Below the pieces are notes generated by a model that did not search any database, was not told where the DNA came from, and was given only the letters and a program-made list of their open reading frames with translations. From IMG/VR virus record IMGVR_UViG_3300043446_004598, positions 1-25,739 of that record: 25,739 nt of DNA. One strand, given 5' to 3'. This document shows, piece by piece, positions 1-20,432 of this stretch. How positions within the stretch are numbered: the stretch's first letter is position 1; each line of letters opens with the position of its first letter. This DNA is from a virus. The position numbers were made by a program, and so were the translations under genes.

Positions 1-205
1 CGACGCGACCAGCGACGCGACCAGCGACGCGACCGACGCCGCGACCGACGCCGCGACCTACACCGCGACCTACGCCGCGACCCGCGACGCGACCTACGCC
101 GCGACCCGCGACGCGACCGACGCCGCGACCCGTGCCGCGACCTACGCCACGACCAGCGACGCGACCGACGCCGCGACCGACGCCGCGACCAGCGACGCGA
201 CCGAC
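1..205 (+). repeat. 12-bp tandem repeat, about 17 units, coding
   Basis: Back-to-back 12-base units, each ending in the near-invariant GCGACC. The first codon of each unit alternates between GAC, TAC, AGC and CGC, and the second mostly between GCC and GAC. Every unit keeps frame and encodes X-(A/D)-A-T. Few substitutions break the pattern (ACC at about 62, ACG at about 149). The array enters from outside the window, so total copy number is unknown. It stops at the transition to an Ala-rich linker near 206. Confidence 0.9.
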
Positions 206-907
206 GCACCAGCCGCACAGGCGGCGAAAGCATGTAAGGCGCTTGCAGGTGATTTTGGTTTGAAGTGCGCTTCGCATTGGCGTCGCGTCATGCAGGGCGG
301 AAACATGCATGCAGCCTACGACAGTTACCTGACGGCCTTCCGCGACATTATTGGTTTGCGTTTGCCCGCACATGAGAAATACGCGGCGTGGGAACAGGCG
401 GCAATTCACGGCGGCTTCCGCGTGATGCACGAAGAATTCTGTCTCGTGTCGGACTTCCCAAAAGTGCTGAAGATTGATGCCGAGAACCGCCCTCATTGCG
501 AGACCGGCCCGTCTCACCGCTGGCGCGACGGCTGGTCTCTGTATCACTGGCACGGCGTGCGCGTGCCCGCCGAATGGATCGAGGACAGGGCGTCGCTGTC
601 GGCCAAGACGGCCCTGACGTGGCCGAACGTCGAACAGCGCCGCGCGGCATGCGAGATCGTTGGATGGGCCAACATTCTGCGCGAGTTGAAAGCCAAGACC
701 ATCGACCGCGATCCCGATCCCGAAATCGGCGAGCTTGTCGAGGTCAAGATCGAAGGCAATCGCGAGCGGTTCATCAAGGTCTTGTGCGGCACCCGGCGCG
801 AGTTTGCGCTCCCCGTACCCCCCGGAACCAAAACGGCACTGGAAGGAAACGCTTGGACTTACGGTGTCGATCCCAATCTCATCAAGCGCATCGAAGTGAG
901 GACCTGA
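2..907 (+). CDS. Tetrapeptide-repeat protein with DUF6745-like C-terminal domain (5' partial)
   Basis: The reading frame is open from the window edge to the TGA at 905-907, so the gene begins outside the window; a TTG at 260 is an internal codon, not a convincing start. About residues 1-68 are an almost perfect four-residue repeat of the form X-(A/D)-A-T, where X is D, Y, S or R. This passes through an Ala-rich linker into a globular domain of about 215 residues. The globular part has Trp/His/Gly signatures (GWSLYHWHGVRVPAEWI, then PNVEQRRAACEIVGW) that I recall from DUF6745-type proteins, in which Ala-rich short repeats also often precede the domain. Function is unknown; no catalytic motif is obvious. 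The next gene starts 2 bases after this stop, with GAGGA upstream inside this gene, so the two are probably co-expressed. The family assignment is from memory and moderately sure; the repeat is read directly. Confidence 0.75.
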   Translation, partial: DATSDATSDATDAATDAATYTATYAATRDATYAATRDATDAATRAATYATTSDATDAATDAATSDATDAPAAQAAKACKALAGDFGLKCASHWRRVMQGGNMHAAYDSYLTAFRDIIGLRLPAHEKYAAWEQAAIHGGFRVMHEEFCLVSDFPKVLKIDAENRPHCETGPSHRWRDGWSLYHWHGVRVPAEWIEDRASLSAKTALTWPNVEQRRAACEIVGWANILRELKAKTIDRDPDPEIGELVEVKIEGNRERFIKVLCGTRREFALPVPPGTKTALEGNAWTYGVDPNLIKRIEVRT

Positions 908-909
908 AC

Positions 910-1248
910 ATGCATACGTTTCGTAACATCTGCGCGCAGGGCGATATCCTGATCCAGCGCATCGACAAGCTGCCCGAGAACGTGATCCCGGTCGAGCCCG
1001 AGAACGGCAAGATCATCGTCACGCACAGCGAGACCGGGCACCACCATGTGATGACCATGGAGCGCACGAAGGCGTATCGCTTGCCCGACAGCATCATGGA
1101 TATTTTCCTGACCGTCGAGCAGGGCGACGTCCTCGAACATCTGCGCCCGCACGACACGCACGAGCCCATCCAGTTTGGGCCGGGCATCTATCACGTCCGT
1201 CGGCAGCGCGAGTACGTGCCCGAGGGTTTCCGCCGGGTGGAGGACTGA
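910..1248 (+). CDS. Small His-rich conserved phage protein
   Basis: A 112-residue protein starting at ATG 910, with GAGGA about 8 bases upstream inside the end of the preceding gene. It opens with a QGDILIQRID segment, has a central TGHHHV cluster, and ends with GIYHVRRQREYVPEG. I recall this pattern (GDVL near the N-terminus, TGHxH in the middle, Y-x-V-x-RQREY at the C-terminus) from a widespread family of small uncharacterised phage and bacterial proteins, often found beside DUF6745 genes, as here. The clustered histidines and predicted beta-rich character suggest a cupin-like fold that could bind metal, but this is inference. No enzymatic role is established to my knowledge. It lies 2 bases after the repeat protein and 3 bases before the next gene, so it belongs to the same transcript. 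Confidence 0.8.
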   Translation: MHTFRNICAQGDILIQRIDKLPENVIPVEPENGKIIVTHSETGHHHVMTMERTKAYRLPDSIMDIFLTVEQGDVLEHLRPHDTHEPIQFGPGIYHVRRQREYVPEGFRRVED

Positions 1249-1251
1249 CAC

Positions 1252-1809
1252 ATGGCGACAGTCAGGATGAACGACTCGCACCGCCAGTTTTTGCGTAATC
1301 TGGCGGCGGACACGGTGAAAAAACTTGTTGACGCGAAGGCGATGGATGCCGCGTACAAGCTCGCGGCCCCGCTGGTGCGCAAGGCTGTTGAAACGAAATA
1401 TCCGCCGAAGGACATGGAGGTCCTGAAGAAGTACGAGTGCGTGGACACGGACACATGCGTGCGTCTGCAGTTGACAGCGGGCGGTGTCGAGCAGTTTGAA
1501 TTTTGCGACGCCGACGCAGTGTATCGCCCCGACACGGGATCGTGCCACCGTCACATCTATGCGACGGACGCGGATACGTCGAAGGCTGTCAGCGCGTACC
1601 TGCTTGAAAGAGAGAAGTTTCAAAAACTCAAGCGCCAGAAACTTGGCGACTACATTGCGCTGATCGACCACGCGCAGACGTTGGAACAGATCGAGTCGAT
1701 CTGGCCCGAAGCCAGCGCGCTGCGCGAGCGCATCGGTCGCGCGTTGCCCGTCGTTTTGTCCGACGACGTCATCGCGCGCATCAAGGCCGACAGCAGGAGG
1801 CGCGCGTGA
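1252..1809 (+). CDS. Hypothetical phage protein, possibly Nmad5-like
   Basis: A 185-residue protein starting at ATG 1252, with GGAGG at 1239-1243 within the end of the previous gene. The N-terminal third is helical and basic (FLRNLAADTVKKLVDAKAMD). A Cys/Asp-rich middle follows, then a Lys-rich helix and a C-terminal segment EQIESIWPEASALRERIG ending in a LPVVLSDDVIARI-type helix. The layout (N-terminal helix, central small beta region, C-terminal 'WPE...LP' helix) resembles phage proteins I associate with Nmad5, nucleotide modification-associated domain 5, whose members occur near DNA-modifying genes. I cannot verify this without a profile search and treat it as a weak suggestion. No signal peptide or membrane segment is seen. 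It is tightly linked to the genes on either side. Confidence 0.7.
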   Translation: MATVRMNDSHRQFLRNLAADTVKKLVDAKAMDAAYKLAAPLVRKAVETKYPPKDMEVLKKYECVDTDTCVRLQLTAGGVEQFEFCDADAVYRPDTGSCHRHIYATDADTSKAVSAYLLEREKFQKLKRQKLGDYIALIDHAQTLEQIESIWPEASALRERIGRALPVVLSDDVIARIKADSRRRA

Positions 1810-1828
1810 CGGAACAGGAGGGGAAGTG

Positions 1829-1996
1829 ATGCTCAAAGCAAAGCCCAAGCGCCCAGCGCAGAGAGAGTGGAAGGTGTGCGCCGCATGCGATGGGCGTGGG
1901 CACGTATTTGGATATCACGGCGATTACATGACCTGCACGGCCTGCAAGGCTACCGGGCGCATCCGCCTCACCCCACCCAAGCCACGGAGGAAGTGA
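1829..1996 (+). CDS. 55-residue DnaJ-type zinc-binding protein
   Basis: A very short gene with a strong ribosome binding site (AGGAGGGG at 1817-1824) ahead of ATG 1829. It encodes a Lys/Arg-rich N-terminus, then CAACDGRGHVFG, a short loop, and CTACKATGRIRL, ending in basic residues. Two C-x2-C-x-G-x-G-like half-sites, 16 residues apart, form one zinc site like those of the DnaJ Cys-rich domain. There is no J domain. Such mini-proteins are common in phages and probably bind nucleic acid or a partner protein. The four cysteines and basic ends also recall small zinc regulators such as Mu Com in general design, but there is no sequence evidence of relationship. Its TGA overlaps the next ATG (ATGA at 1993-1998 region), suggesting translational coupling. 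Confidence 0.7.
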   Translation: MLKAKPKRPAQREWKVCAACDGRGHVFGYHGDYMTCTACKATGRIRLTPPKPRRK

Positions 1997-2085
1997 TGGC
2001 GAGCAAAGACGAACTGCTGCGCAGGGCCGCTGATGCTGCGGCGAACGGCACAGCAGCAACGAAGAAGGAGAAGTCATATGTCTAG
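1996..2085 (+). CDS. 29-residue minigene
   Basis: An ATG at 1996 overlaps the stop of the zinc protein by one base (TGATG), and the frame runs 29 codons to a TAG at 2083-2085. The peptide is charged and Ala-rich (begins MASKDELLRR, ends KKEKSYV), probably a single amphipathic helix. It overlaps the next start by 8 bases. It may be a real minigene or may only serve to carry ribosomes into the downstream gene. No family is recognised. Confidence 0.4.
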   Translation: MASKDELLRRAADAAANGTAATKKEKSYV

Positions 2086-2254
2086 CAATCCGTTTGAAAA
2101 CGATACGTGGGTCCGCATGTGCCTGAAGACGGGCGCGATCACACCCCCGAAGGGCCACAGCATCGAACGCGCCAACAGGATCACGGCCTACACCGTGATC
2201 GCTGCGGTCAGCATCGGCGCGATCATTACGTGGGTGGCGTTCCTGTGGAAGTGA
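2078..2254 (+). CDS. Small single-pass membrane protein
   Basis: ATG 2078 follows GAAGGAGAAG at good spacing; an in-frame extension to 2033 lacks such a site. The 58-residue product has a polar N-terminal half with one Cys (VRMCLKTG) and a hydrophobic C-terminal segment of about 22 residues (TAYTVIAAVSIGAIITWVAF) ending in LWK. This predicts one membrane helix with the N-terminus probably in the cytoplasm. Small one-helix proteins are common in phage early regions (superinfection exclusion, lysis control), but nothing here fixes the role. Its last 29 bases overlap the end of the convergent helicase gene. Confidence 0.6.
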   Translation: MSSNPFENDTWVRMCLKTGAITPPKGHSIERANRITAYTVIAAVSIGAIITWVAFLWK

Positions 2255-3569
2255 ACACGGCGTCCTGAACTTCCGCCTTGAACGTGAGCCGCGGGAAGAC
2301 CGTCTCGTCCTCCACGGTGTTGGCGGCGACGGTCGCGTAGCTGATCGTTTCCGGTGCGCGCTGCCCCTCGCGGGCCAGCCGCATGATCGTCTGTTCGTAG
2401 TGGTCAAGCGACCACGGCAACGAGCACCAGCACACGACGTGACCGCCATACTGCAGATTCAATCCGTGCCCGAACGCCGCCGGATGCGCGATCAACACGC
2501 GCAGGCGGCCAGCGTTCCAGTCCTCGACGGCCTTGGCCGCGACCTTGCGTGTCGTGCCGCTGCCCAGCACGGGCGCGTCGGGATACCGCCGCTTCAACTC
2601 GTCGAGCTGCTCGCGGTAATCGTAGACCAGCAGGACCGGCGACGTCTGGCTGTCGACGACATCGCAGATCGCGTGGACCCGGAACATGTCGAGCCGCTTG
2701 CCGGCGCCGGTCTCATCGTACACGAAGCCTGCACACACCTGCCGCATCTTGTTGACGACCTGCGCCCGCGCGCCGGGCATCAGCAGCTCGCCCTCGATGT
2801 CGGCGACGCTGGCCTTGTCCAGTTCGGTGTAGATGCGGCGCAGCTCAGGCGGCAGCTCGACCGGCACCTTGACGTGGCGCACGGGCGGCGGCGCCCAGTT
2901 TTCGGGCGACAGGATGAACGTCATGTCATCGATCTGCGCCAGCGTCCTCTCCAACGTGCCCTTGCGGCAGCGCCAGACATTCTCGGCCTGCTCCCACATG
3001 TTGGCCGCGCGCCACGCAACCCAGTTGCGGCCAAGGCGCCGCCCGTGGTCGATCATGCGGACCTGCGCGAACAGGTCCTCGGGGCCGTTCGGCACCGGCG
3101 AGCCGGTCAGGCCGATACGCACGGCCATATGCGCCGTGTGCTTCAGGGTCGGCCGCCACTTGGCCGACGTCGGGCCCTTGAACTTCGACAGCTCGTCGAT
3201 CACGAAACAGTCGAAGGACTTGCTGTGCTTTTCGAGCAGGTCGACAAGGTTCTCGTGGTTCACGACGACGATCTCTGCGCCGCCGTACACCGCCTCGTCG
3301 CGCTCCTTCGGCGTGCCCGTCGCGATGGCAATACGCAGGTGGCTCAAATGAGCCCACTTCGCGCCTTCCTGCTGCCACACCAGCTCCGCAACACGCAGCG
3401 GTGCCGTGACGAGCGCACGGCGTACCACGCCGTCCCGCAGCATCTCACTGAGTGCCGTCAGCGTGACGACCGTCTTGCCGGCGCCCGGCCTCGCGAACAC
3501 GAGGCTCTCGTTGCGTTCGTAGATGTGGGTGATGGCCTGTTCCTGAACAGGCCGGAGCGTTACGGACAT
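2226..3569 (-). CDS. SNF2/DEAD-type superfamily 2 DNA helicase
   Basis: A 447-residue ATPase with an almost complete superfamily 2 motif set: a Q-like LRPVQEQAI near residue 5, Walker A RPGAGKT (K32), Walker B DELS at 125-128 in place of DEAH, motif III TGSPVPN at about 155-161, and a C-terminal motif VI QTIMRLAREGQ at 393-403. The order and the R-x-x-R-x-GQ motif are typical of phage SNF2-like helicases, which translocate on DNA during replication or recombination. Length is at the short end, with no accessory domains. It starts at 3569 and overlaps the upstream nuclease gene by 10 bases, so the two form a transcription unit. Both face opposite to the surrounding replication genes. Its 3' end overlaps the convergent membrane-protein gene by 29 bases. 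Confidence 0.92.
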   Translation of the reverse strand: MSVTLRPVQEQAITHIYERNESLVFARPGAGKTVVTLTALSEMLRDGVVRRALVTAPLRVAELVWQQEGAKWAHLSHLRIAIATGTPKERDEAVYGGAEIVVVNHENLVDLLEKHSKSFDCFVIDELSKFKGPTSAKWRPTLKHTAHMAVRIGLTGSPVPNGPEDLFAQVRMIDHGRRLGRNWVAWRAANMWEQAENVWRCRKGTLERTLAQIDDMTFILSPENWAPPPVRHVKVPVELPPELRRIYTELDKASVADIEGELLMPGARAQVVNKMRQVCAGFVYDETGAGKRLDMFRVHAICDVVDSQTSPVLLVYDYREQLDELKRRYPDAPVLGSGTTRKVAAKAVEDWNAGRLRVLIAHPAAFGHGLNLQYGGHVVCWCSLPWSLDHYEQTIMRLAREGQRAPETISYATVAANTVEDETVFPRLTFKAEVQDAVFTSTGTPPT

Positions 3570-3823
3570 ATGCGTTCGAAATCCGATACGTTGTCGATGA
3601 CGTGCACCTCGAAACCTAAGCCACGCAGCTTGTCATGCCAAGCCAATTGCAACGGCGTCGGCTTTTTGCCCGGCGCCTTGAACTCCACGAACACGACGCG
3701 GCCGCCGTGAGACAGTATGAGACGGTCTGGGACACCGGGGTATCCGGGGACGACCAATTTCCAGAAAATGATGCCGCGCGCCTTGGCGTATTTGCGGCAC
3801 CGCGATTCTATGTGTTTTTCCAC
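3560..3823 (-). CDS. VRR-NUC domain nuclease
   Basis: An 87-residue stand-alone VRR-NUC protein of the PD-(D/E)XK superfamily. Visible active-site elements are an N-terminal Glu (E2 or E6), G-V-P-D at 30-33, the E-F-K motif at 47-49, and the family's P-L-Q at 57-59. These proteins cut structured DNA, for example branched replication or recombination intermediates, with a divalent metal. The start is a GTG at 3823; an in-frame TAA lies just upstream and no strong ribosome binding site is seen. Short phage VRR-NUC proteins are typically encoded beside SNF2-type helicases, exactly as here, so a joint role in processing branched DNA is likely. Confidence 0.9.
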   Translation of the reverse strand: MEKHIESRCRKYAKARGIIFWKLVVPGYPGVPDRLILSHGGRVVFVEFKAPGKKPTPLQLAWHDKLRGLGFEVHVIDNVSDFERICP

Positions 3824-3840
3824 GCTTTAATTTAACACCG

Positions 3841-3870
3841 TTGACTCACGCAAGCGAGCACCCGTAGCTT
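3841..3870 (+). promoter_or_regulatory. Candidate promoter for the replication operon
   Basis: The 70-base gap between the divergent VRR-NUC and DUF2800 genes holds TTGACT at 3841-3846 (five of six bases of the -35 consensus). TAGCTT follows 18 bases later at 3865-3870, a poor -10. A ribosome binding site AGGAG at 3884-3888 precedes ATG 3894. This is the only sizeable non-coding gap on the left side, so promoters for both directions are expected here. The minus-strand promoter would lie in the AT-rich stretch at 3824-3835, but I could not pick a convincing hexamer pair. Confidence 0.4.
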
Positions 3871-3893
3871 GCGCGCAACATACAGGAGCTAGA

Positions 3894-5018
3894 ATGCAGC
3901 ACGCGCCTTTTGGAAGTTCGACGGCCGACCGTGTCATGAATTGCCCCGGCTCAGTCGCCCTCTCCGCAAAATCGCCCGAAGCCCCGCCCAGCGAGTACGC
4001 TGCAAAGGGCAGCGCGCAGCACGCGCTAATCGAGCACCTGTTGCTGGAAGGCGGCGAGCCCGACGAATTCATCGGTGCGAAGTTTGCCGACGTCGAGATT
4101 GATCAGGAGCTGGCCGACGGCGTTGCCGTAGCGTTGAAGGCCGCGGAGGAATTGCTGGGTGTCTACGATGGCGAACAGCTTATCGAGCAGCGGCTCGTGA
4201 TCGTGCCCGACGAAGTGTTCGGCACCGGCGACATCGTCGCGACGACGAAGGACGGCACGCGTGCGCTGATTGCCGATCACAAGTTCGGGTACATGGAAGT
4301 CAGCGCCGAAAGCGCGCAGCTCAAGTTTCTGGCGGCCGCGTTTCTGGTCGATCCGGCCATGGCGGAATTCAGCAAGGACGTCGAGGAGTTCGAGCTGGTC
4401 ATCATCCAGCCCGCGTTCGATCCGCCTACGGTCAAGGCGACGGCGACGCGCGCCGAGATCGAGGTCTTCCTGCGCAGCGTGAAGCTGGTCCACTCGGCGA
4501 CCAAGTCGCCGTCGGCCGACGTGCGCATGGGCGAGTGGTGCAAGTGGTGCCGCGCGAAGGTGATCTGCCCGGCGCAGAAGAAACTGTTCGCCGACCTGAT
4601 CGACATCAAGGTTCACCCCGACTGGTCGGCTACCGAAATCGCCGGAATGATCGAGAATTGCAAGCAGGTCGAAGAGCTGATCGAGGCAGTGAAGGAACGC
4701 GCCAAGCACGAGCTGGCTCACGGACGCTCGATCCCCGGTTGGCGGTTGAAACCCGGCGCAACGCGCCTGACGTGGTCGCAGCCGAACAAGGAAACGATTG
4801 CCGCCCTGCGCGGCCTCGGGCTCAAGGGCGACAAGGCCATTCAGCCCATTACACCGGCGGCGGCGAAGAAGGCGCTGAAGCTGGAAGAGCTTCCCGACGA
4901 TCTCGTCGCGAAGAGCACGAGCGCGCCGTCGCTCGCTCGTGATACCGACGCCGCAGACGCTGTCCTGCCGGCGGCGGCTTTTGCAAAGGCAGCAGCACTG
5001 ATGAAAGGAAACAGGTAA
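3894..5018 (+). CDS. DUF2800 Cas4/RecB-like PD-(D/E)XK nuclease
   Basis: A 374-residue protein with AGGAG ahead of ATG 3894. It carries the Cas4/RecB-family nuclease set: GSAQH (H43), G-T-G-D-I (D113), D-H-K (D128, K130) and Q142 in ESAQLK. Four cysteines are placed as in iron-sulfur nucleases of the Cas4/AddB type: C17 near the N-terminus, then C216, C219 and C225. The remaining C-terminal 150 residues are helical and charged, ending in an Ala-rich tail. DUF2800 proteins sit in phage replication modules beside a ssDNA-binding protein and polymerase, as here, and are presumed to resect or trim DNA ends. Nuclease function is inferred from residues, not proven for this family. The stop and the next start share one base (TAATG). 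Confidence 0.9.
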   Translation: MQHAPFGSSTADRVMNCPGSVALSAKSPEAPPSEYAAKGSAQHALIEHLLLEGGEPDEFIGAKFADVEIDQELADGVAVALKAAEELLGVYDGEQLIEQRLVIVPDEVFGTGDIVATTKDGTRALIADHKFGYMEVSAESAQLKFLAAAFLVDPAMAEFSKDVEEFELVIIQPAFDPPTVKATATRAEIEVFLRSVKLVHSATKSPSADVRMGEWCKWCRAKVICPAQKKLFADLIDIKVHPDWSATEIAGMIENCKQVEELIEAVKERAKHELAHGRSIPGWRLKPGATRLTWSQPNKETIAALRGLGLKGDKAIQPITPAAAKKALKLEELPDDLVAKSTSAPSLARDTDAADAVLPAAAFAKAAALMKGNR

Positions 5019-5716
5019 TGAGCAACGAAATCAGTCTTTTTGCGAAGGGCGGCCTGCCGCCCGTGGACATGACCGTCTACAAGCAGGCGATGAAGGCAAC
5101 CGCGGCGGCCAGCAAGGCCGCACTCGGCGGCCTTCCGTTCCTGCGGCTCCTGCGTGACGGCATGTGGGTCTACGGCGCCGAGAGCACCGAGGTCGAGGAA
5201 GACAGCCTCTGGGCCGTCAACTCGTTCTCGATGGCCTTGGGCTGGATCGCTTGGGGCGACGAAGGCAGCAAGGACGAAGGCACCGTCATGGGCGAGGAGA
5301 TGGCACGCATCGGCGAACCGCCGATCCAGCGTGGCAACCTGCCCGACGTCGGCGCCGAGTGGACGCCCTGCGTGTCGTTCGACTTGATGTGCATCACGGG
5401 CGAGGACAAGGGCACCACCGTGCGCTTCAAGAGCAACTCCGTCGGCGGCCGCCGCGCGTTCAGCGACATGCTGCAGCTGGTGTCGGCAGCGATGGATGAC
5501 GGGTCGGGCAAGTGCATCCCGATTGTCGCGCTGGATTCGGACAGCTACGCTCACAAGAAGTACGGCAAAATCTACACGCCGATCTTCGACGTGAAGAAGT
5601 GGGTGATGCCCGACGCCAGCGAGCTTGGGGGTGCTCCTGCTGCGGCTGCTGAGGAGAAGCCGCAGCCGAAGGAGCAGCCGGCTGCCGAGGCAACGGTTCG
5701 CCGTCGCCGCCGGTAG
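5018..5716 (+). CDS. Probable phage ssDNA-binding protein
   Basis: A 232-residue protein starting at ATG 5018, which overlaps the upstream stop by one base; AAGGAAACAGG lies ahead. Recognisable segments are LWAVNSFSMALGWIAWGD at about residues 64-81, LPDVGAEWTPCVSFDLMC at about 108-125, SNSVGGRRAFSDML, and the basic-aromatic SYAHKKYGKIYTP. I recall this combination from phage proteins encoded between DUF2800 and a family A polymerase, a slot filled by DUF2815-type ssDNA-binding proteins in related modules. An OB-like binding role is therefore inferred from context. Unlike classic SSBs, the tail is a Pro/Ala/Glu linker ending in RRRRR rather than acidic residues. A strong hairpin follows directly downstream. 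Confidence 0.75.
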   Translation: MSNEISLFAKGGLPPVDMTVYKQAMKATAAASKAALGGLPFLRLLRDGMWVYGAESTEVEEDSLWAVNSFSMALGWIAWGDEGSKDEGTVMGEEMARIGEPPIQRGNLPDVGAEWTPCVSFDLMCITGEDKGTTVRFKSNSVGGRRAFSDMLQLVSAAMDDGSGKCIPIVALDSDSYAHKKYGKIYTPIFDVKKWVMPDASELGGAPAAAAEEKPQPKEQPAAEATVRRRRR

Positions 5717-5728
5717 TCGTTCGGGGGA

Positions 5729-5760
5729 CGGGGGCGGCCTCGTGCCGCCCCCGATCTTGT
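5729..5760 (+). terminator. GC-rich hairpin, terminator-like or attenuator
   Basis: A perfect 10-bp inverted repeat, CGGGGGCGGC at 5729-5738 and GCCGCCCCCG at 5744-5753, with a 5-base loop, followed by ATCTTGTT. The trailing T-tract is weak, so termination may be partial. It begins 12 bases after the ssDNA-binding gene and ends just before the GGAGG of the next gene. It could hold back transcription of the modification and polymerase genes, or protect the 3' end of the upstream message. Confidence 0.55.
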
Positions 5761-5771
5761 TGGAGGATAGC

Positions 5772-6263
5772 ATGGCATTTACGGTCGTTCGCATAGAGAT
5801 AAACACCGCAAGAGATTTCATCGCCGCGCATCACAGCCGCTTGCCGTACACGCAGAAAGGCCCGTGGAAGATGGCATTCGGCGCGTATCAGGACGGCGCC
5901 CTCGTGGGGGTCGCACTCTGGCACAATTGCTCCGCGCGCGGCTTGCCGCAAAACTGGCTGGAGTTGAGGCGCATGGCGATCTCAGGCGACGCGCTGCCGA
6001 ACACAGCATCGCGCATGTTGTCGGCGATGCGCACCGCGATCCGGCGCCAGCAAGGCTATGAGACGGTGCTGGTATCCTATCAGGACGTGGCGGTGCATCA
6101 CGGCACGATCTACAAGGCCTCCGGCTGGACGCCAGTGGCGATATCGCGCCCCCGGCACCGTGACCGGACGCCGTTGCGCGGCGCCCGCCGCCAGCGCCAA
6201 GGTCAGGTGGCAAATCGGTTGCGGCAGGCAGCGTTTCACGGCGCTGTCGGCGGAACAGCTTGA
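5772..6263 (+). CDS. Mom-like GNAT-fold protein, candidate DNA modification enzyme
   Basis: The start is ATG 5772, with GGAGG at 5762-5766; the frame is open further upstream but without such a site. The 163-residue product has an N-terminal AAHHSRLPYTQKG, a GAYQDGALVGVALW strand pair, then LELRRMAISGDALPNTASRM and LVSYQDVAVHHGTIYKASGW. An 'R-x-x-x...P-N-x-x-S-R' loop followed by 'Y-x-D...G-x-I-Y-x-A-x-G-W' is the pattern I associate with Mom-like acetyltransferase-fold phage proteins. Mu Mom converts adenine to a carbamoylmethylated form that blocks host restriction. The C-terminus is very basic (about 40 residues rich in Arg/Gln), which fits DNA contact. It stands between the hairpin and the polymerase gene. 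An XF1762-type or ordinary N-acetyltransferase is the alternative. Confidence 0.7.
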   Translation: MAFTVVRIEINTARDFIAAHHSRLPYTQKGPWKMAFGAYQDGALVGVALWHNCSARGLPQNWLELRRMAISGDALPNTASRMLSAMRTAIRRQQGYETVLVSYQDVAVHHGTIYKASGWTPVAISRPRHRDRTPLRGARRQRQGQVANRLRQAAFHGAVGGTA

Positions 6264-6304
6264 GCAGGCCAAGACTATGCGGCCGACTAGATAGCGAGGA
6301 TAGG

Positions 6305-8290
6305 ATGGGATTGATACTGAGTTTGGATTACGAGACTTCGTCGCCGCTCGACGTTACCGAAGTCGGCGCTTACCGCTACGCCAAGAGCGCCAAGATCATG
6401 TGCGCCGCGTACGCCGTGTACGAGGAAGGTGAATTCGAGGCCGCCATGGTCGAGCCGTGGCGCGCGTGGCTGGGCGAACCGATGCCCGACGAACTGCTGC
6501 GCGCCCTGCGCGATCCGGAAGTCAGAAACTGCGCATGGAATGCTCAGTTCGAGCGGCTCATCACGCAGCACTGCACGGGTGTCGCGGTGCCGCTGGAAAA
6601 GTGGTTTTGCACGGCCGCGCGTGCGCGCGCCTCGGCCTATCCCGGCAAGCTCGACCTCTGCGCCAAGGCATTGGCGATCCCGCAGAAAAAGGATTTGGCC
6701 GGCGGCAAGTTGATGAAGAAGCTGTCGACCGAAGGCGCCGGCACACCGGAAGAATACGAGCGCGTGCTTCAGTACTGCATGCAGGACGTCGTCGTCGAGG
6801 CGACCATCGGCATGGTCGTGCGCGATCTTACGCCCGACGAGTGGCAGGACTACTGGGTTTGCGAACGCATGAACGACCGCGGCATCCCGGTGGATGTCGA
6901 ACTGGCGCGCGCTGCGCAGCGTTACGCGGAGGCCGAGGCGGCCGAGATCGCGAAGGAACTGGAAGCCGTGACCAAGGGCGTCGTCACCAGCGCCAAGCAA
7001 TTCCAGCGCATCAAGACGTGGGTCGCCGAACGCGCGCCCGAACTGTACGAGATGCTGAAGGACGACGACGGCAAGGTCTCGCTCGACAAGTCGGCGCGCG
7101 TCGCTGCGTTCGAGAGCGGGCTTTCGTTGCCGTCGGAAGTGGACGAGCTGCTGCACCTGATCGACGACGCCGGCCGTGCCAGCACCGCGAAGTACGCCGC
7201 CATCGAAAACCGTGCCGACGAAGACGGTCGCCTGCGCGGCGCATACCTGTTCAATGGCGCGGGCCAGACGGGCCGTTTTTCCGCCATGGGATTTCAGCCC
7301 CATAATCTGGTCAGAGATAAGCTCGATAACGGGGTTGACGTGATCGAAGCTGTGCTCAACGGCGCGTCGGCTGCCAAGGTCACGGCCCTGTCCGGCCAGA
7401 ACATGCTGACCACGCTGGCGCGGATGTTGCGGCCGACCATTGTTGCCGAGGACGGCAACGTGCTGGTGTGGGCCGACTACTCGGCCATCGAGGCTCGCGC
7501 GCTGCCGTGGCTGTCCGGCAGCAAGGCCGCCGAAGACCTGCTTGACTTGTTCCGCAAGGGCGAGGACGTCTACAAGTACGCGGCCGCAGATATCTACAGG
7601 GTGCCTGTGAATCGCGTGGATAAGGCACAGCGCCAGATGGGCAAGATCGCGATCCTTGCGCTGGGCTATCAGGGCGGCAAGAACGCCTTCCGCAAGATGG
7701 CGCGCGCCTACGGCCTGAAGATCGACGACGAGACCGCCGAAGAGATCAAGGTCGCGTGGCGCCACGCCAACCCATGGGCCAAGCTGTTCTGGGCCGATCT
7801 GGAATCGGCCGCGATACGCGCCGCGCGCAACGAAGGCACCGTGCACACGGCGGGACGCATCAAGTACCTGATGCACGGCGACATGCTGTACGCCCTGCTG
7901 CCGTGCGGGCGCCTGATCGCGTACCCGGAGGCGCGCCTCGACACGGTCGAAGGCAAGTTCGGCCCGCAGACACGCCTCACGGCGCTGAAGGCCTCGATGC
8001 ACCCGAAGAAGGGCGAGGATACGTGGCCGCGCGTTGCTCTGTACGGCGGCCTGCTGGCCGAGAACGCGACACAGGGTTTCTGCGCGTCGCTGCTGCGCGC
8101 CGGCGCGCGCCGCCTCGACGAGGCCGGGTGGCCCGTCGTCATGCACACCCATGACGAGATATTGCTGGAAATCGCCGAGGACGAACTGCGTGACGGCGAG
8201 CTTGCGCTGTCGGAAGCGATGACGACGTCGGCGTGGCCGACACTTCCGCTTGCTGTCGAAACTCAACACGGCTACAGCTACAACAAGTAA
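6305..8290 (+). CDS. Family A (Pol I-type) DNA polymerase
   Basis: A 661-residue polymerase; ATG 6305 is preferred over the longer frame from 6260 because GAGGATAG precedes it and the exonuclease motif begins directly after it. The N-terminal 3'-5' exonuclease shows D8-Y-E10, a WNAQFE segment and YCMQD, giving the expected Asp/Glu residues. The polymerase domain has motif A WADYSAIEARALPWL (D391), motif B R443-x3-K447-IAILALGYQGG, and motif C HDE (D617, E618). All key residues are intact, so active replication and proofreading are expected. There is no 5'-3' exonuclease domain, as usual for phage enzymes. It is followed 9 bases later by the primase-helicase gene. Confidence 0.96.
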   Translation: MGLILSLDYETSSPLDVTEVGAYRYAKSAKIMCAAYAVYEEGEFEAAMVEPWRAWLGEPMPDELLRALRDPEVRNCAWNAQFERLITQHCTGVAVPLEKWFCTAARARASAYPGKLDLCAKALAIPQKKDLAGGKLMKKLSTEGAGTPEEYERVLQYCMQDVVVEATIGMVVRDLTPDEWQDYWVCERMNDRGIPVDVELARAAQRYAEAEAAEIAKELEAVTKGVVTSAKQFQRIKTWVAERAPELYEMLKDDDGKVSLDKSARVAAFESGLSLPSEVDELLHLIDDAGRASTAKYAAIENRADEDGRLRGAYLFNGAGQTGRFSAMGFQPHNLVRDKLDNGVDVIEAVLNGASAAKVTALSGQNMLTTLARMLRPTIVAEDGNVLVWADYSAIEARALPWLSGSKAAEDLLDLFRKGEDVYKYAAADIYRVPVNRVDKAQRQMGKIAILALGYQGGKNAFRKMARAYGLKIDDETAEEIKVAWRHANPWAKLFWADLESAAIRAARNEGTVHTAGRIKYLMHGDMLYALLPCGRLIAYPEARLDTVEGKFGPQTRLTALKASMHPKKGEDTWPRVALYGGLLAENATQGFCASLLRAGARRLDEAGWPVVMHTHDEILLEIAEDELRDGELALSEAMTTSAWPTLPLAVETQHGYSYNK

Positions 8291-8299
8291 GAGGCCGGC

Positions 8300-10579
8300 A
8301 TGGAATTGGATACATTCATAACTCAGGTTTTTGGCGCATTGGCCGTCGACGAAGTCGTCGGCATTGTCCAGCGCGGCAAGGATACACGCGGTTGGCAGCT
8401 GCAGCCCTACAAGCAGGGGCGCACCAAGCTGCGTTCCGACGCGGCCAGTTACTACTGCATCTCGACGCTGTCGCGCCCGGACAGCAACGAACCGCTGCGT
8501 CGCCTCATGGCCAACATGCGGCGCTGCCCGATCATCGTGCTCGACGACATCGGCACGAAAATCCCGTGGAAGGTCTTCGACGGCAAGCCGTTCTTTCACT
8601 ACGTCATGGAGACCAGCCCCGGCAACTTTCAGGCCGGACTGAAGTTCAGCGGCACGCTTGAGGAAGCGCAGGCGCTGATCGAGGCTTTCATCGAGGGCGG
8701 CTACAGCGATCCCGGCGCACGCGATGTCCACCGTCTCGTGCGCCTGCCGGGTTCGCAGAATTTCAAGTTCGAGCCGCCGTTCACGGCGCGGCTGACCGAA
8801 GAAAACTGGGACGAGCCCGCCTACACCTTCGCCGAGGCCATCGCCGAGTTCGGCCTGACGCCGCGCGAGCCGACGTCGCTGCGCGCCACGAAGCGCGTGT
8901 GGTCGGGCGACACTGGCGGCGATGTCATCCTGAAATGGTTGACCGAACAGGGCATGGTGCTGTCGGAGGCGAACTCCGACGGCTGGCTGTTCATCGAGTG
9001 CCCGTGGAGCGACGAGCACAGCGACGGCCGCACCGACGCCAAGTATCAGGTCGGCAACGGCGCGACCGGCACGGTGCACTGCTTCCACGGCGCCTGCCAG
9101 CATCGCACGCAGCAGGATTTCCTGCTGTGGTGCAAAGAGAACGGCGCGCCGGACTTCGAGGACGAGGCCGTCAAGCAGGCCGCCAGCATCGGCCAGAAGC
9201 TCGCCGCGATACCGAGGGGAGTGTTTGCGCCACCGGACCCTTTGCCGCCCCCGCCGGAGGGAGCCGGTGCGGGGGCTATCCTTACTGGGCTCGTGCTGAA
9301 ATACGCGCCGAAGCTGAGAAAGGACGCGCTGCCAAGCCTCGAAACCACCGCAAAGGGCGCCGTAAAGGACGTACAAAAACCCGTCGCAGAAAACGTGCAG
9401 TACATCGTCGAGGAATGTGGCTTCGGCGTTCTAAGAAACCATCTCACCGGAGACGTTGAGTTGTCGCATCCTGATGAGGCGTTCGACATGATCAAGAACC
9501 CGGAAGAGCGCGCGACGCTGACACGGGAACTGATGATATCGCTTGGCCAACGTCTCGGTATTTCGTTGCGGCCTACGCTGTCCGAATTGTTGAGCGCGCT
9601 CGCCGGCAACAAGGGTTATCACCCGCTGCTCGACTGGGTCCTGTCGAAGCCGTGGGATGGCGTCGACCGCCTGCGCCCGCTGCTCGACAGCATCGAGGCA
9701 GCGAATCCCGCATGGCGCGACATTGCCGTAAAGCGGTGGTGCATCCAGTGCATCGCCGCATGGACGAATTGGATGCGCGACACGCCCCTGTCCATCCCGC
9801 ATGTTCTGATCCTCGATGGCCCGCAGGGCTGCGGCAAGACGTCGTGGTTCGGCGTGCTCCTGCCTGCGCCGTGGCGGCTTCTTGAACAGAGCGCGCATCT
9901 CGGCCACGTCAACAGCAAGGATGACGAACGGCGGCTGACCAGCGCCGGCATCGTCGAGATGTCGGAGTTCGAGACCGTGGTCGGCCGCGCCGAAGCAGGC
10001 CACCTGAAGAGCTTCGTATCGCGCCCGCTCGACAAGATCAGGTTGCCCTACGACCGCCACATCACCATTCGCGCGCGCGGCACTGCCTTCTGCGCCAGCG
10101 TGAACGGCGGCGAGTACCTGAACGATGCAACCGGCGCCCGCAGGTACTGGCCTATCGAAGTTACACGTTGCGACTTCAACCACGGCATCGACATGCAACA
10201 GTTCTGGGCCCAGATGGCCGTGCTGTTCGAGGCGGGCGAATCGTGGAATCTGGTGGGCAACGAGATACCGCTGCATGCGGCTACTGCCGAAGAGCACCGG
10301 GTCGTGTCCAACGCCGAGGGACGTCTCGAAGAGCTGCAGGCGCGCATGTTGCACGTTCCCCGGAAGGATTGGACGTTCGCAACGCCGAGCATTGTCTGCC
10401 GCTACTACGGTCTCGACAATAACTACACGAACTCGCGTAACGCAGGTGCGTATCTGCGCAAGATATTCGGCAAACGCAGCAGCAACAACGGGAGAAAAGG
10501 TTGGTACGTACCGCTCAAACAGACCGAACTGCAGGCGGGATACTCCCCATACATTCCACCAGAGGCTAATGACAGATGA
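8300..10579 (+). CDS. Primase-helicase: AEP-like primase, zinc site and VapE-type ATPase
   Basis: A 759-residue protein. The N-terminal 200 residues look like a RepB/AEP-type primase: IIVLDDIGTK near residue 80, ETSPGNFQAGLKF near 105-120, and DVHRLVRLPGSQNFK near 145-160. A Cys/His cluster follows (CPWSDEH near 233, then HCFHGACQH near 258), a likely zinc site. After a Pro-rich linker near 310-325, the C-terminal half is a virulence-associated E (VapE/D5-like) superfamily 3-type ATPase with Walker A DGPQGCGKT (K513) and a later EMSEFE segment as the Walker B region. Such fusions unwind DNA and lay primers at phage forks. It would act with the polymerase upstream. The stop overlaps the next ATG (ATGA). 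Confidence 0.9.
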   Translation: MELDTFITQVFGALAVDEVVGIVQRGKDTRGWQLQPYKQGRTKLRSDAASYYCISTLSRPDSNEPLRRLMANMRRCPIIVLDDIGTKIPWKVFDGKPFFHYVMETSPGNFQAGLKFSGTLEEAQALIEAFIEGGYSDPGARDVHRLVRLPGSQNFKFEPPFTARLTEENWDEPAYTFAEAIAEFGLTPREPTSLRATKRVWSGDTGGDVILKWLTEQGMVLSEANSDGWLFIECPWSDEHSDGRTDAKYQVGNGATGTVHCFHGACQHRTQQDFLLWCKENGAPDFEDEAVKQAASIGQKLAAIPRGVFAPPDPLPPPPEGAGAGAILTGLVLKYAPKLRKDALPSLETTAKGAVKDVQKPVAENVQYIVEECGFGVLRNHLTGDVELSHPDEAFDMIKNPEERATLTRELMISLGQRLGISLRPTLSELLSALAGNKGYHPLLDWVLSKPWDGVDRLRPLLDSIEAANPAWRDIAVKRWCIQCIAAWTNWMRDTPLSIPHVLILDGPQGCGKTSWFGVLLPAPWRLLEQSAHLGHVNSKDDERRLTSAGIVEMSEFETVVGRAEAGHLKSFVSRPLDKIRLPYDRHITIRARGTAFCASVNGGEYLNDATGARRYWPIEVTRCDFNHGIDMQQFWAQMAVLFEAGESWNLVGNEIPLHAATAEEHRVVSNAEGRLEELQARMLHVPRKDWTFATPSIVCRYYGLDNNYTNSRNAGAYLRKIFGKRSSNNGRKGWYVPLKQTELQAGYSPYIPPEANDR

Positions 10580-10842
10580 AATTTCTTTTGCACATGAACA
10601 TGCCGTCGGGCGGCAATGACGGCACGCATCAAGTCATCTTGAGCATCGAAGGTGTCGACTCGCTCGATGCGCTGATGTCATACATCGTCGAAAATCAGGG
10701 CATCCTGTTCGGCCAGCATCTCGTGTACGACCGCGACCGCGACGGACGTCGTGTCTGGCGGGTTCGCGGGCCTCTGCTGGTCAACATGGATCACGTTGGC
10801 AAGGTTGCCGTTTACCATGAGGGTGAAAATGAAACACGCTGA
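10576..10842 (+). CDS. Small conserved phage protein, function unknown
   Basis: An 88-residue product starting at ATG 10576, overlapping the helicase stop as ATGA. It begins MKFLLHMNMPS, has GTHQVILSIEGVDSLDALMSY and closes with a LLVNMDHVGKVAVY strand pair. This MKFLL-x-N-MPS...HQ...VN-x-x-x-(I/V)GK arrangement recurs, as I recall, in small phage replication-region proteins. A small beta-barrel is plausible. No catalytic residues are evident. It overlaps the next gene by 14 bases. Confidence 0.7.
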   Translation: MKFLLHMNMPSGGNDGTHQVILSIEGVDSLDALMSYIVENQGILFGQHLVYDRDRDGRRVWRVRGPLLVNMDHVGKVAVYHEGENETR

Positions 10843-11104
10843 TATGATGACTGAAGCCGCCAAGCTGGTGGCGCCGCGCGGAAACGTTTACGGCGGCATC
10901 CGCGAGAACCACGAGCAGATCGCCAAGATCGCGACGCAGCTCACCGGCATCGAGCTGGATGCGCACAACATCCTGATGATCATGGTCGCCGTGAAACTGT
11001 CGCGGATCGCGAAGTCGCCTGAGCATGTCGACAGCTATCTCGACGCACTCAATTACCTTTCATTTGCCGGGGAGCTTGCGACCGATGCCGTGGGCGAAGG
11101 GTGA
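10829..11104 (+). CDS. DUF6378 protein
   Basis: A 91-residue protein starting at ATG 10829, with GAGGG about 8 bases upstream; ATG 10817 is a possible alternative. The sequence AAKLVAPRGNVYGGIRENHEQIAKI, then GIELDAHNILMIMVAVKLSRI and HVDSYLDALNYLSFAGEL, matches the DUF6378 layout: a YG-x-x-x-ENH motif, a helix with M-x-x-x-K-x-x-R, and a D-x-x-x-Y-x-x-AGEL end. These all-helical proteins are widespread in phages, especially near nucleotide or replication genes. They resemble all-alpha NTP pyrophosphatases in outline, but the function is not established. Residues here are well conserved as I recall the family. Confidence 0.85.
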   Translation: MKHADMMTEAAKLVAPRGNVYGGIRENHEQIAKIATQLTGIELDAHNILMIMVAVKLSRIAKSPEHVDSYLDALNYLSFAGELATDAVGEG

Positions 11105-11330
11105 GGCCAACATATCGGCCAAGCTGACGGCGGCGCAGGTGCGCGCTGTCAGGCAGGACACCCGTATCGGCAAGCTCGTGGCGGCCGACTACGGCATCGC
11201 TGCGAGCCAAGTGTGGCGCATACGTAATTGCATGAAATGGAGACATCTCGATGAAGAAAAACAGCCGCGAACATCACACGGCGATCTACTGGTCGCTGTG
11301 CCGTCAGTATCGCAATCGGTGCTGGAATGA
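11085..11330 (+). CDS. Small helix-turn-helix protein
   Basis: The likely start is ATG 11085, with GGGGAG upstream, overlapping the DUF6378 gene by 20 bases; an upstream start at 11025 would lie deeper in that gene. The 81-residue product has LTAAQVRAVRQDTRIGKLVA followed by DYGIAASQVWRIRNCMKW. This is the classic phage pattern L-(S/T)-x-x-x-V-R-x-(I/V)R...(I/V)A-x-x-YG(V/I)-S-x-x-x-(V/I)-x-x-I of a short HTH that also accompanies homing endonucleases. It may be a DNA-binding regulator. The last 27 residues overlap the next ORF in another frame and look less constrained. Confidence 0.6.
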   Translation: MPWAKGEANISAKLTAAQVRAVRQDTRIGKLVAADYGIAASQVWRIRNCMKWRHLDEEKQPRTSHGDLLVAVPSVSQSVLE

Positions 11331-11451
11331 ACTTGCAACTGTCTCGGTAACACGGCTCTTGCAAAGTCCGTACGAGCGTGTGAGGCTGATGGCTTGTGAA
11401 CTCTGGTATAGGATTACATCGAATGACACGAAAGAGCAGGCGTGCGATTGA
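11251..11451 (+). CDS. Hypothetical 66-residue protein
   Basis: ATG 11251 is preceded by GGAGA at 9 bases. The product is Arg/Tyr/Trp-rich (SREHHTAIYWSLCRQYRNRCWNE opening region, then helices) and has no recognisable motif. It overlaps the HTH gene by 80 bases and the next gene by 29 bases. Such nested overlap is unusual for two real genes, so one of the pair may be spurious. The good ribosome binding site supports this one. Confidence 0.45.
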   Translation: MKKNSREHHTAIYWSLCRQYRNRCWNELATVSVTRLLQSPYERVRLMACELWYRITSNDTKEQACD

Positions 11452-11656
11452 GCAGACCGCCTTGGCCGAAGGCGTCACTCGCATCGAATGGACGTTGAAC
11501 CGGCGAGGCAAGCACGAACTGGCGATGCTTCACTTTGCCGACGGTCGCCACATCATCATGCACATCTCGCGCAGCTCGCGAGATGACGAGTACAAGTTGC
11601 GCGGCTGGACGCGACAGTATATTCGCAACCAGTCGCGGCAGCCCGTCAGGTCTTGA
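11423..11656 (+). CDS. Hypothetical basic protein at the end of the left operon
   Basis: The chosen start is ATG 11423 (AGGA about 10 bases upstream); a GTG at 11396 is the alternative. The 77-residue product is basic, with a beta-type core (RIEWTLNRRGKHELAMLHFADG and HIIMHISRS) that reads as two or three antiparallel strands around short turns. I do not recognise a family. It is the last plus-strand gene, and its final 11 bases overlap the end of the convergent tail-collar gene. No terminator hairpin is visible between the two converging operons. Confidence 0.5.
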   Translation: MTRKSRRAIEQTALAEGVTRIEWTLNRRGKHELAMLHFADGRHIIMHISRSSRDDEYKLRGWTRQYIRNQSRQPVRS

Positions 11657-12902
11657 TAATCCAGTTCGCGACGGCGGTCGGCTGCACGTTGTTGTGCGCG
11701 ACGTCGCCGCCCGTCGACGACGTGGTGCCGGTGCCGGGCGATCCATACAGGGACGAACCGCCGCCCGATCCGCCAAGCGCCGTCTGCCCGCCGGCATTTC
11801 CGTGCGTATGCGCGGCCAGTTCGGCCGTCGTCAATTGATGGCTCTGTTCGCCGCCCGTGGCCCCAACGGTGGCGCTGCCGGTAATGCCGCCGGTCGCGCC
11901 GCTGCCCAGCCGCCCGGCCGCGCTGCCGCCCATGTTGTCCGCGCCCGCAACAAGGCGACCGCGCAAATCGGGCACATTGAACGTCGTGCTGCCGTCGCCA
12001 CTGCCCCATGTCGTGCCGATTGCCGAAAACAGGTCGGAGTAGGTCGTGCGCGAAATGGCTTGGCCGTAGCAAAGCAGCCAGCCGGTTGGCGCGCTTGCGC
12101 CGGCATAGGCCGTTAGAGTGCCCGCGGGGATTGCCGCGGCCACAGCCGCTGTCGTCTGCACCGTACTGTCAGGAAACACGAAACCGCCGGCCGTCGATGC
12201 CACGGTGCCAGCGACCGTCAACTTGTTGGCGCCGACGGTGGTCGTGCCGATGCCGACCTGCGCGCCCGACGGCGACAGGTACAGCGTGTTGCTGCCGATG
12301 TTCAGCGTGTTCGGGATCGACATCGCGTTCGAATTGACGGTGAGCGTGTCGCCCGCCGCGTCGCCGAGCACGGTGTTGCCGCTGTTGTTCAGGCCGGTGA
12401 CGGCGAGCGTCGTGCCGTCGAACGTGAGCCCCGCCGAGCCGGCCAGCGCGCCTGCGCTGTTGTACTGGATTTGCGTGTTGGAGCCGGCGGGATTGGTGGC
12501 AGCAGTCGTGTTCCGCACCATGCCGGAAGCCGAGCCGTCACAGGACGCTTCGAGATTGTCGCCGGCGGTGATTGTTACGTAGGTTCCGCCGGAAGCCGAT
12601 TGCAGGCGAATCACCGATCCATCGCTTACGCCGTTTCGCACGATCCACTGGCCGCCGACGCCGGCGGGCACGGTGTACGTGACAGTGCCGCCGGGGCTGC
12701 CGGAAATGGCGAGCGTCGCCGGGCGGCATTGAGTTAATGTCAGGGCAACGGTTGTGCCGCCGAGGCCCGTGGCATTGAGGAGCGTGCTGCCGCCGAGCGC
12801 GAGGTCGATGAAACCGAAATTGTCGTTCAGCGGCCCGGTGCCCCACGTATTGACGTAGGTGTTGTAGCCGGGCTGGTTCAGGCCCTTGTTCGTCGTTGTC
12901 AT
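11646..12902 (-). CDS. Tail-collar domain fibre protein
   Basis: A 418-residue virion protein. The N-terminus (NKGLNQPGYNTYVNTWG, then PLNDNFGFID) is a pattern seen at the virion-attachment end of phage fibres. The middle is Gly/Thr/Ser-rich repeats typical of a beta-helical or trimeric shaft. The C-terminal third holds the phage tail collar domain: APTGWLLCYGQAISRTTY, then FNVPDLRGR, followed by a Gly-rich loop with H-x-H (AHTHGNAGG) and the ending VQPTAVANWIIKT. Such proteins form the distal tip that binds the host surface. Its ATG overlaps the stop of the upstream gene (ATGA at 12899-12902). It is the last gene of the minus-strand operon. Confidence 0.9.
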   Translation of the reverse strand: MTTTNKGLNQPGYNTYVNTWGTGPLNDNFGFIDLALGGSTLLNATGLGGTTVALTLTQCRPATLAISGSPGGTVTYTVPAGVGGQWIVRNGVSDGSVIRLQSASGGTYVTITAGDNLEASCDGSASGMVRNTTAATNPAGSNTQIQYNSAGALAGSAGLTFDGTTLAVTGLNNSGNTVLGDAAGDTLTVNSNAMSIPNTLNIGSNTLYLSPSGAQVGIGTTTVGANKLTVAGTVASTAGGFVFPDSTVQTTAAVAAAIPAGTLTAYAGASAPTGWLLCYGQAISRTTYSDLFSAIGTTWGSGDGSTTFNVPDLRGRLVAGADNMGGSAAGRLGSGATGGITGSATVGATGGEQSHQLTTAELAAHTHGNAGGQTALGGSGGGSSLYGSPGTGTTSSTGGDVAHNNVQPTAVANWIIKT

Positions 12903-19944: not shown

Positions 19945-20432
19945 CAAGCGGCCTTGTTGGTTACGCCGGTCTCGGCGTTCAGGAGCCAGTATGCGCCGGC
20001 GGGTTTACCGAAGACGCGTTCGTAGAGACGCACCTTGCCTTCGGTGCGGCTGTTGGAAAGGATGCCGATGAGCAGCGGCATTTCGAGCTTGTCGGCCGCC
20101 GTCTTGGCGAACTCGCACAGCTTGCGGGCGCGGCCGCCCTTGGCGGCGCGGTAGTCGGGATGAACAAACACGCCGCGCTCTTCAAGCACGATCTTGTCGC
20201 TGTACCAGAGCTTCGTCGTGCGCAGCAGGATGCCGCCTTCGAAGTGTTCCGCGCCGGGGGCGCCGATGATGCCACAGAGGCCGCCTTCGCGATGCAGCGC
20301 GGGCCACACCTCTTCCAGCAATTTTACCGGGTCCGGTTTCACGAACCCGTTCTCCTCGCTGCCCTGCAGGCATAGCTCCATGAATCCATGTATATCCGAG
20401 GGGGTACCTACGCGAACGTGAATATCGGACAT
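19944..20432 (-). CDS. GNAT-family acetyltransferase-like phage protein
   Basis: A 162-residue protein with a near-ideal ribosome binding site (AGGAGG, about 5 bases before ATG 20432) that overlaps the upstream stop TAG. The fold reads as GNAT: IHVRVGTPSDIHGFMELC at the N-terminus, a CGIIG strand, LEERGVFVHPDYRAAKGGRARKL as the strand and acetyl-CoA loop (R/K-GG-R-A), and a final LYERVFGKPAGAYWLL. Proteins like this are found, as I recall, at the same place in phage structural operons of alphaproteobacteria. A substrate is unknown; it could modify a virion or host protein. The usual Q/R-x-x-G-x-G/A loop is altered to A-K-G-G-R-A, so catalysis is likely but not certain. Its stop couples to the 1584-residue gene. 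Confidence 0.85.
   Translation of the reverse strand: MSDIHVRVGTPSDIHGFMELCLQGSEENGFVKPDPVKLLEEVWPALHREGGLCGIIGAPGAEHFEGGILLRTTKLWYSDKIVLEERGVFVHPDYRAAKGGRARKLCEFAKTAADKLEMPLLIGILSNSRTEGKVRLYERVFGKPAGAYWLLNAETGVTNKAA

Follow-up and report, generated by a model that had tools for sequence, protein, structure and literature searches.

This locus raises the question of whether a phage known from a metagenome carries genes that alter the bases of its own DNA, and whether such genes are still in working order. The window, that is, the whole stretch of 25,739 bases that was analysed, is a single metagenome contig (virus record IMGVR_UViG_3300043446_004598). A first-pass annotation had proposed a DNA hypermodification set, composed of a Mom-like gene and an Nmad5-like candidate, and both open reading frames (ORFs) are present, at 5772-6263 (product P0001) and at 1252-1809 (product P0002). 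Our analysis makes it quite likely that the first is adenine-modification cargo lodged at the start of polA, which comes and goes as one unit and is here broken and probably inactive. The features of the region are collected in Table 1.

Table 1. Positions in the window of the genes, repeats, damaged segments and sibling matches discussed in the text.
Feature	Position	Strand	Details
Sibling block	136-1248		94.3% identity
Segment with P0002, absent from sibling	1249-2085	plus	sibling matches end at 1248 and resume at 2086
P0002, Nmad5 candidate, family unproven	1252-1809	plus	
Sibling block	2086-2254		93.5% identity
Helicase	2226-3569	minus	
Sibling block	2253-5779		96.6% identity
VRR-NUC-like nuclease	3560-3823	minus	Pfam 23.7 bits, cut-off 23.8
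DUF2800 protein	3894-5018	plus	
Conserved neighbour upstream of mom site	5018-5716	plus	phrog_9528, 6.3e-17
Terminator-like hairpin	5730-5752	plus	9-bp stem; between gene 5018-5716 and mom/polA start
Direct repeat, left copy	5763-5779	plus	GAGGATAGCATGGCATT; ribosome-binding site and mom start
mom ORF as assembled	5772-6263	plus	163 aa; out-of-frame basic tail at end
Intact Mom core in frame	5772-6176	plus	135 codons; alignment with Mu Mom
41-nt gap relative to L002	6177..6178	plus	DNA alignment; placement within a base or two
Remnant of genuine Mom C-terminal end	6178-6294	plus, +1 frame	38 codons and TAG; K-x-R-W strand
Direct repeat, right copy	6296-6312	plus	GAGGATAGGATGGGATT; ribosome-binding site and polA start
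Sibling block	6296-11263		95.2% identity
Family A DNA polymerase (polA), downstream of mom site	6305-8290	plus	Pfam 1.1e-19; phrog_17
VapE-type primase/helicase	8300-10579	plus	
Sibling block	11260-13856		94.4% identity

P0001 matches the Pfam family Mom (PF25680) with 54.6 bits (1.5e-14, residues 3-120), the curated cut-off being 27.1, and the PHROG 'Mom-like DNA modification protein' (phrog_1384) at 1.6e-22. The patterns on which the first-pass annotation had relied, P-N-x-x-SR and Y-x-D...GTIY-x-A-GW, are present as LPNTASR (residues 75-81) and SYQD...HHGTIYKASGW (102-119), and their residues fall mostly on invariant columns of a 13-row alignment (A1), in which W50, E64, R67, N77, SYQD (102-105) and HHGTIYKA (109-116) are among the invariant positions. 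Comparison of the A1 profile with PDB sequences gave Mu Mom (8bv8) as the one significant match, at 1.1e-5, and a single further hit at 0.33. Residues E64, R67, N77, S80, D105 and Y114 of P0001 align to E108, R111, N121, S124, D149 and Y159 of the catalytic region of Mu Mom. The S124A mutant is titled inactive in PDB entry 8bv8, and P0001 retains the counterpart S80, in a column where T also occurs among the relatives in A1.

The structural comparison with Mu Mom proposed at first pass was run on the intact protein of a relative, L002, a 6,733-base contig from IMG/VR that is 76.7% identical to window positions 2254-8253 in one alignment. The AlphaFold model of this protein (20-row alignment; pLDDT 84.3, pTM 0.79) has Mu Mom as its top match, in Foldseek (1.7e-8) and in VIA-align (Z 17.6 over 161 residues), at only about 20% identity. 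An ordinary GNAT acetyltransferase, acting on a protein or a small molecule and not on DNA, would share much of this architecture: the fold is a general one, 909 of 999 aligned chains have Z of at least 8, acetyltransferases such as RimI reach the 15.2 of the entry next to Mu Mom, and many GNAT enzymes follow in the ranking, as expected for one common fold. We nevertheless regard this as very unlikely. Mu Mom comes first by sequence and by fold, Mom is the sole Pfam match of P0001 up to E 1, and tblastn found relatives of P0001 in 90 phage records, all below 60% identity, of which the 40 listed include 27 annotated as Mom (24) or DNA modification (3), 9 as hypothetical and 4 with no annotation. 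With Pfam, PHROGs and predicted fold in agreement, the Mom-like claim is upheld, and a mom gene occupies 5772-6294. The gene is of a known kind and the phage lineage is new; what the window holds is a damaged copy, not a non-Mom gene.

This copy differs from Mu Mom in several respects. P0001 is a short form, with 23% identity in alignment A3; it is encoded beside polA, whereas in Mu the genes mom and com overlap close to the right end; and it is without the last strand. P0001 also resembles the XF1762 family (NCBIfam NF045478), matching 132 of 143 positions with 49.4 bits, just below the curated cut-off of 50; the scores of L002, L005 and L013 are 36-42, and the matches listed do not include L003. 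A literature search for XF1762 found no paper.

The 'very basic tail' noted at first pass exists in the ORF as read, but it is an out-of-frame translation and not the genuine end of Mom. In L002 the whole protein of 187 aa is coded in one frame. After the common RDRTPLR, the window ORF continues GARRQRQGQV..., unlike L002, and it is the +1 frame of the window that reads AAPAASAKVRWQ... to a TAG at 6292-6294, like the end of the L002 protein; P0001 is thus translated out of frame from about residue 137. The Mom core is 80.7% identical to that of L002 in amino acids over 135 codons (pN/pS 0.20), and the tail, taken in its own frame, 68.4% over 38 codons (pN/pS 0.27), with mismatches of 14, 5 and 17 by codon position; five neighbouring genes give pN/pS of 0.22-0.41 in the same comparison. 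The tail therefore appears, from its pN/pS, identity and codon-position mismatches, to have been a constrained protein end until recently.

Owing to the out-of-frame gap, the window ORF is without the last beta-strand. This C-terminal strand, which follows a variable loop, is absent from P0001 as assembled, its remnant lying in another frame; the lost segment corresponds to a confident strand (157-163) in the model of L002, and at the same position a segment of Mu Mom is aligned. In a model of the window ORF itself (13-row alignment; pLDDT 71.7) the last strand is absent and the prediction is poor from residue 101, although the comparison of the two models is indicative only, since they rest on different alignments (13 and 20 rows). 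Given that the core is whole and the last strand is lost, little or no activity is to be expected, and judged by its sequence mom as assembled probably gives no working enzyme. The case is a warning that a striking 'basic tail' may come from a frame change.

We consider it fairly probable that the 41-nt gap and frame change are a real lesion, in a single contig where a slight error in the assembly or in a base would give the same picture. The gene could instead be intact in the living phage, with an assembly or base-calling error superimposed on a naturally shorter loop, so that a working Mom is made. The loop at the gap varies in length in the family and is disordered or of low confidence in the L002 model, which means that shortening it need not by itself do harm; read in its own frame, the tail retains the look of a protein end under constraint, and the record is one metagenome contig. 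However, the assembled DNA contains nothing that would preserve the mom frame, and the polymerase downstream, like the neighbouring genes, reads unbroken, which leaves an intact gene as the less likely possibility. A programmed +1 ribosome shift that joins core and tail, both frames being used on purpose, would suit a tail that lies in the +1 frame and is kept to its own stop; yet the closest relative codes the whole protein in one frame and no known shift signal was seen by eye, and this explanation appears most improbable. With the gap taken as a lesion, the window mom is probably inactive and being lost.

mom is surrounded by a replication module, in which the order from 3894 to 10579 is all on the plus strand. 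No Pfam family was matched by gene 5018-5716, the product of which we take to be DUF2815, and the hairpin that follows this gene has similar counterparts in the compared relatives. A sibling contig, 3300007735_001020 (12,956 bases; loci L032, L056 and L059), shares five main blocks with the window but has no mom. The edges of the matches on either side of mom fall inside two copies of a ribosome-binding-site and start-codon repeat, which are equal at 15 of 17 bases. Elsewhere on the plus strand of the window, the 20-mer at the mom start is matched best at the polA start (15/20) and next best at the primase start (14).

Occupancy of the site was counted in 22 contigs, namely the window and 21 others that have gene 5018-5716 in a closely similar copy, and a polA start. 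mom lies between these genes in two (the window and L002), while 17 have a bare gap of 54-77 bases. L069 has a NUMOD4/HNH gene (NUMOD4 + HNH_3 endonuclease, 6908-7438) in place of mom, and L063 (860-1099) and L064 (1586-1825) have a 79-aa serine-rich ORF with a copy of the intergenic sequence and its hairpin on either side, an arrangement suggestive of insertion with a duplication. The count leaves out L073, L077 and L101 (flank missing), L078-L096 (polA 29-31% identical) and L109-L122 (gene 5018-5716 31-47% identical); by tblastn, mom was not seen in L073, L077, L101 or L109-L122. On the tree, L067/L068/L076, L061/L074 and L063/L064 form groups of near duplicates, which brings the number of independent lineages below 22. 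Whole records were also searched with Pfam: of 22 (those of the 21 contigs and of L034), four have Mom, L002, L074, L098 and L034, which makes five of 23 with the window; the Mom genes of L074 and L098 adjoin the helicase gene, and that of L034 is upstream of the counterpart of the DUF6745 gene of the window. The related records are fragments, and absence of mom applies to the sequenced part of each phage. mom is accessory in related phages and, being missing from a close sister and broken here, looks like optional cargo and not like a new system.

In polA itself, in-frame, stop-free inserts are found in L075 (3253-4122), L072 (about 9777-10619) and L071 (about 9828-10283). They start with Cys and end in VHN before a Cys, an arrangement that we take to be intein-like; a Pfam search of these polymerases up to E 0.01 gave DNA_pol_A only.

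A tree built from three concatenated proteins places the window beside the empty-site sibling (support 1.0), and L002 together with two empty-site contigs in another clade (support 1.0). When window and L002 are compared, the synonymous difference of the mom core is 0.665, against 0.451-0.495 in four neighbours (p 0.0002-0.0045), and against 0.53 in VRR-NUC, where it is not significant (p 0.09); synonymous sites are near saturation, and the higher value in mom is therefore an indication only. Of 30 loci that came from a search for further copies of the mom allele of the window, only L002 is close (78%), the next being at 53%, and a scan of genome contigs with one A1 pattern confirmed no further mom. 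A single old insertion followed by vertical descent is not favoured, as both the tree and the synonymous difference speak against it. We read the distribution as separate acquisitions of mom, or as exchange via the common flanks; an old mom gene lost many times is a possible alternative. Most likely, mom is adenine-modification cargo that has been repeatedly gained and lost, and that is in decay in this phage.

In passages of two papers, the chemistry of Mu Mom is described as directed at N6 of adenine, with ncm6A as the modified base (PMC7824862, PMC8281217). Intact Mom in this phage group would be a GNAT-fold enzyme that puts a small acyl-derived group on adenines of the phage DNA, and the modification may shield this DNA from host restriction endonucleases. 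The gene, which would enter and leave as one unit, appears to sit as optional cargo at the ribosome-binding site of polA, and would for this reason be expressed with the replication genes; judging by position, Mom would be made alongside the replication proteins and act on new phage DNA. In the window, the out-of-frame gap puts an unrelated basic tail where the last beta-strand should be, presumably with loss of activity. Close contigs with mom, without mom and with a damaged mom suggest a natural route by which a DNA-modification gene is gained and lost. The interest of the locus lies in this with, without and broken series at one site, and the with/without pair offers material for testing the benefit of Mom to the phage. 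More tentatively, the polA start may be a common docking point for hypermodification and other cargo, through the repeated ribosome-binding-site and start-codon sequences, a proposal that we find doubtful at present. If it were true, phages could turn adenine modification on and off within short periods, acquiring it as protection from classical restriction and discarding it in settings where modified DNA is itself the target of enzymes.

The second member of the supposed set fares differently. For P0002, searches of Pfam, NCBIfam, PHROGs and PADLOC gave nothing above threshold (lowest E 0.061 in PHROGs and 0.13 in Pfam). The Nmad5 profile search proposed at first pass (PF18757, cut-off 27 bits) found no match on P0002 or anywhere else in the window up to E 10, whereas the eight phage Nmad5 proteins scanned as controls all score 103-239 bits, and BLASTP of P0002 against a Dhillonvirus Nmad5 also gave no match. 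No relatives of P0002 were found in phages at E 0.01, nor in viral or genome contigs by pattern scans, which reach close relatives only; a single relative with 28% identity, equally family-less, is encoded on a Skermanella plasmid. When P0002 and this relative were compared with an 8-row Nmad5 alignment, the probability was 39% and E was 0.0003 for one comparison, against 0.089 and 0.57 for two other window proteins, and the match was collinear over 90 columns in the C-terminal half, the T...WPE motif included. In hhalign, P0002 alone scores 26.0 against Nmad5, above all 326 decoy ORFs (best 21.4), while Nmad5 members reach 151-225 when each is left out of the profile in turn, and the Skermanella protein by itself scores 12.1. 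The loose resemblance noted at first pass is fair and membership of the Pfam family is not borne out; in view of this weak signal, kinship of P0002 with Nmad5 is not called refuted.

P0002 and mom as a set are not supported. The genes lie 4 kb apart, with two genes of the other strand between them, and belong to separate segments absent from the sibling; moreover, no significant relative of P0002 was found in 121 loci, the mom-bearing L002 included (best E 0.8; best tblastn E 0.48). Next to the window-only segment that contains P0002, the sibling has 316 bases absent from the window (L056 1299-1614), a neighbouring exchange of small cargo.

Elsewhere in the window, a second GNAT-like protein is encoded on the minus strand at 19944-20432, amid apparent structural genes, and its Pfam score for Acetyltransf_7 (20.5 bits) is below the cut-off of 27. 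The region 260-1248 codes for a DUF6745 protein (7.2e-23) and, after it, for a small protein that contains TGHHHV and RQREY, matches no Pfam family and has 21 viral relatives with 42-99% identity. At the start of the DUF6745 region, a 12-base tandem repeat of 17 copies (4-207) reads in frame 2 as Ala-Ala-Thr-(Asp/Arg/Tyr) repeats, long versions of which are found in L057 and L058.
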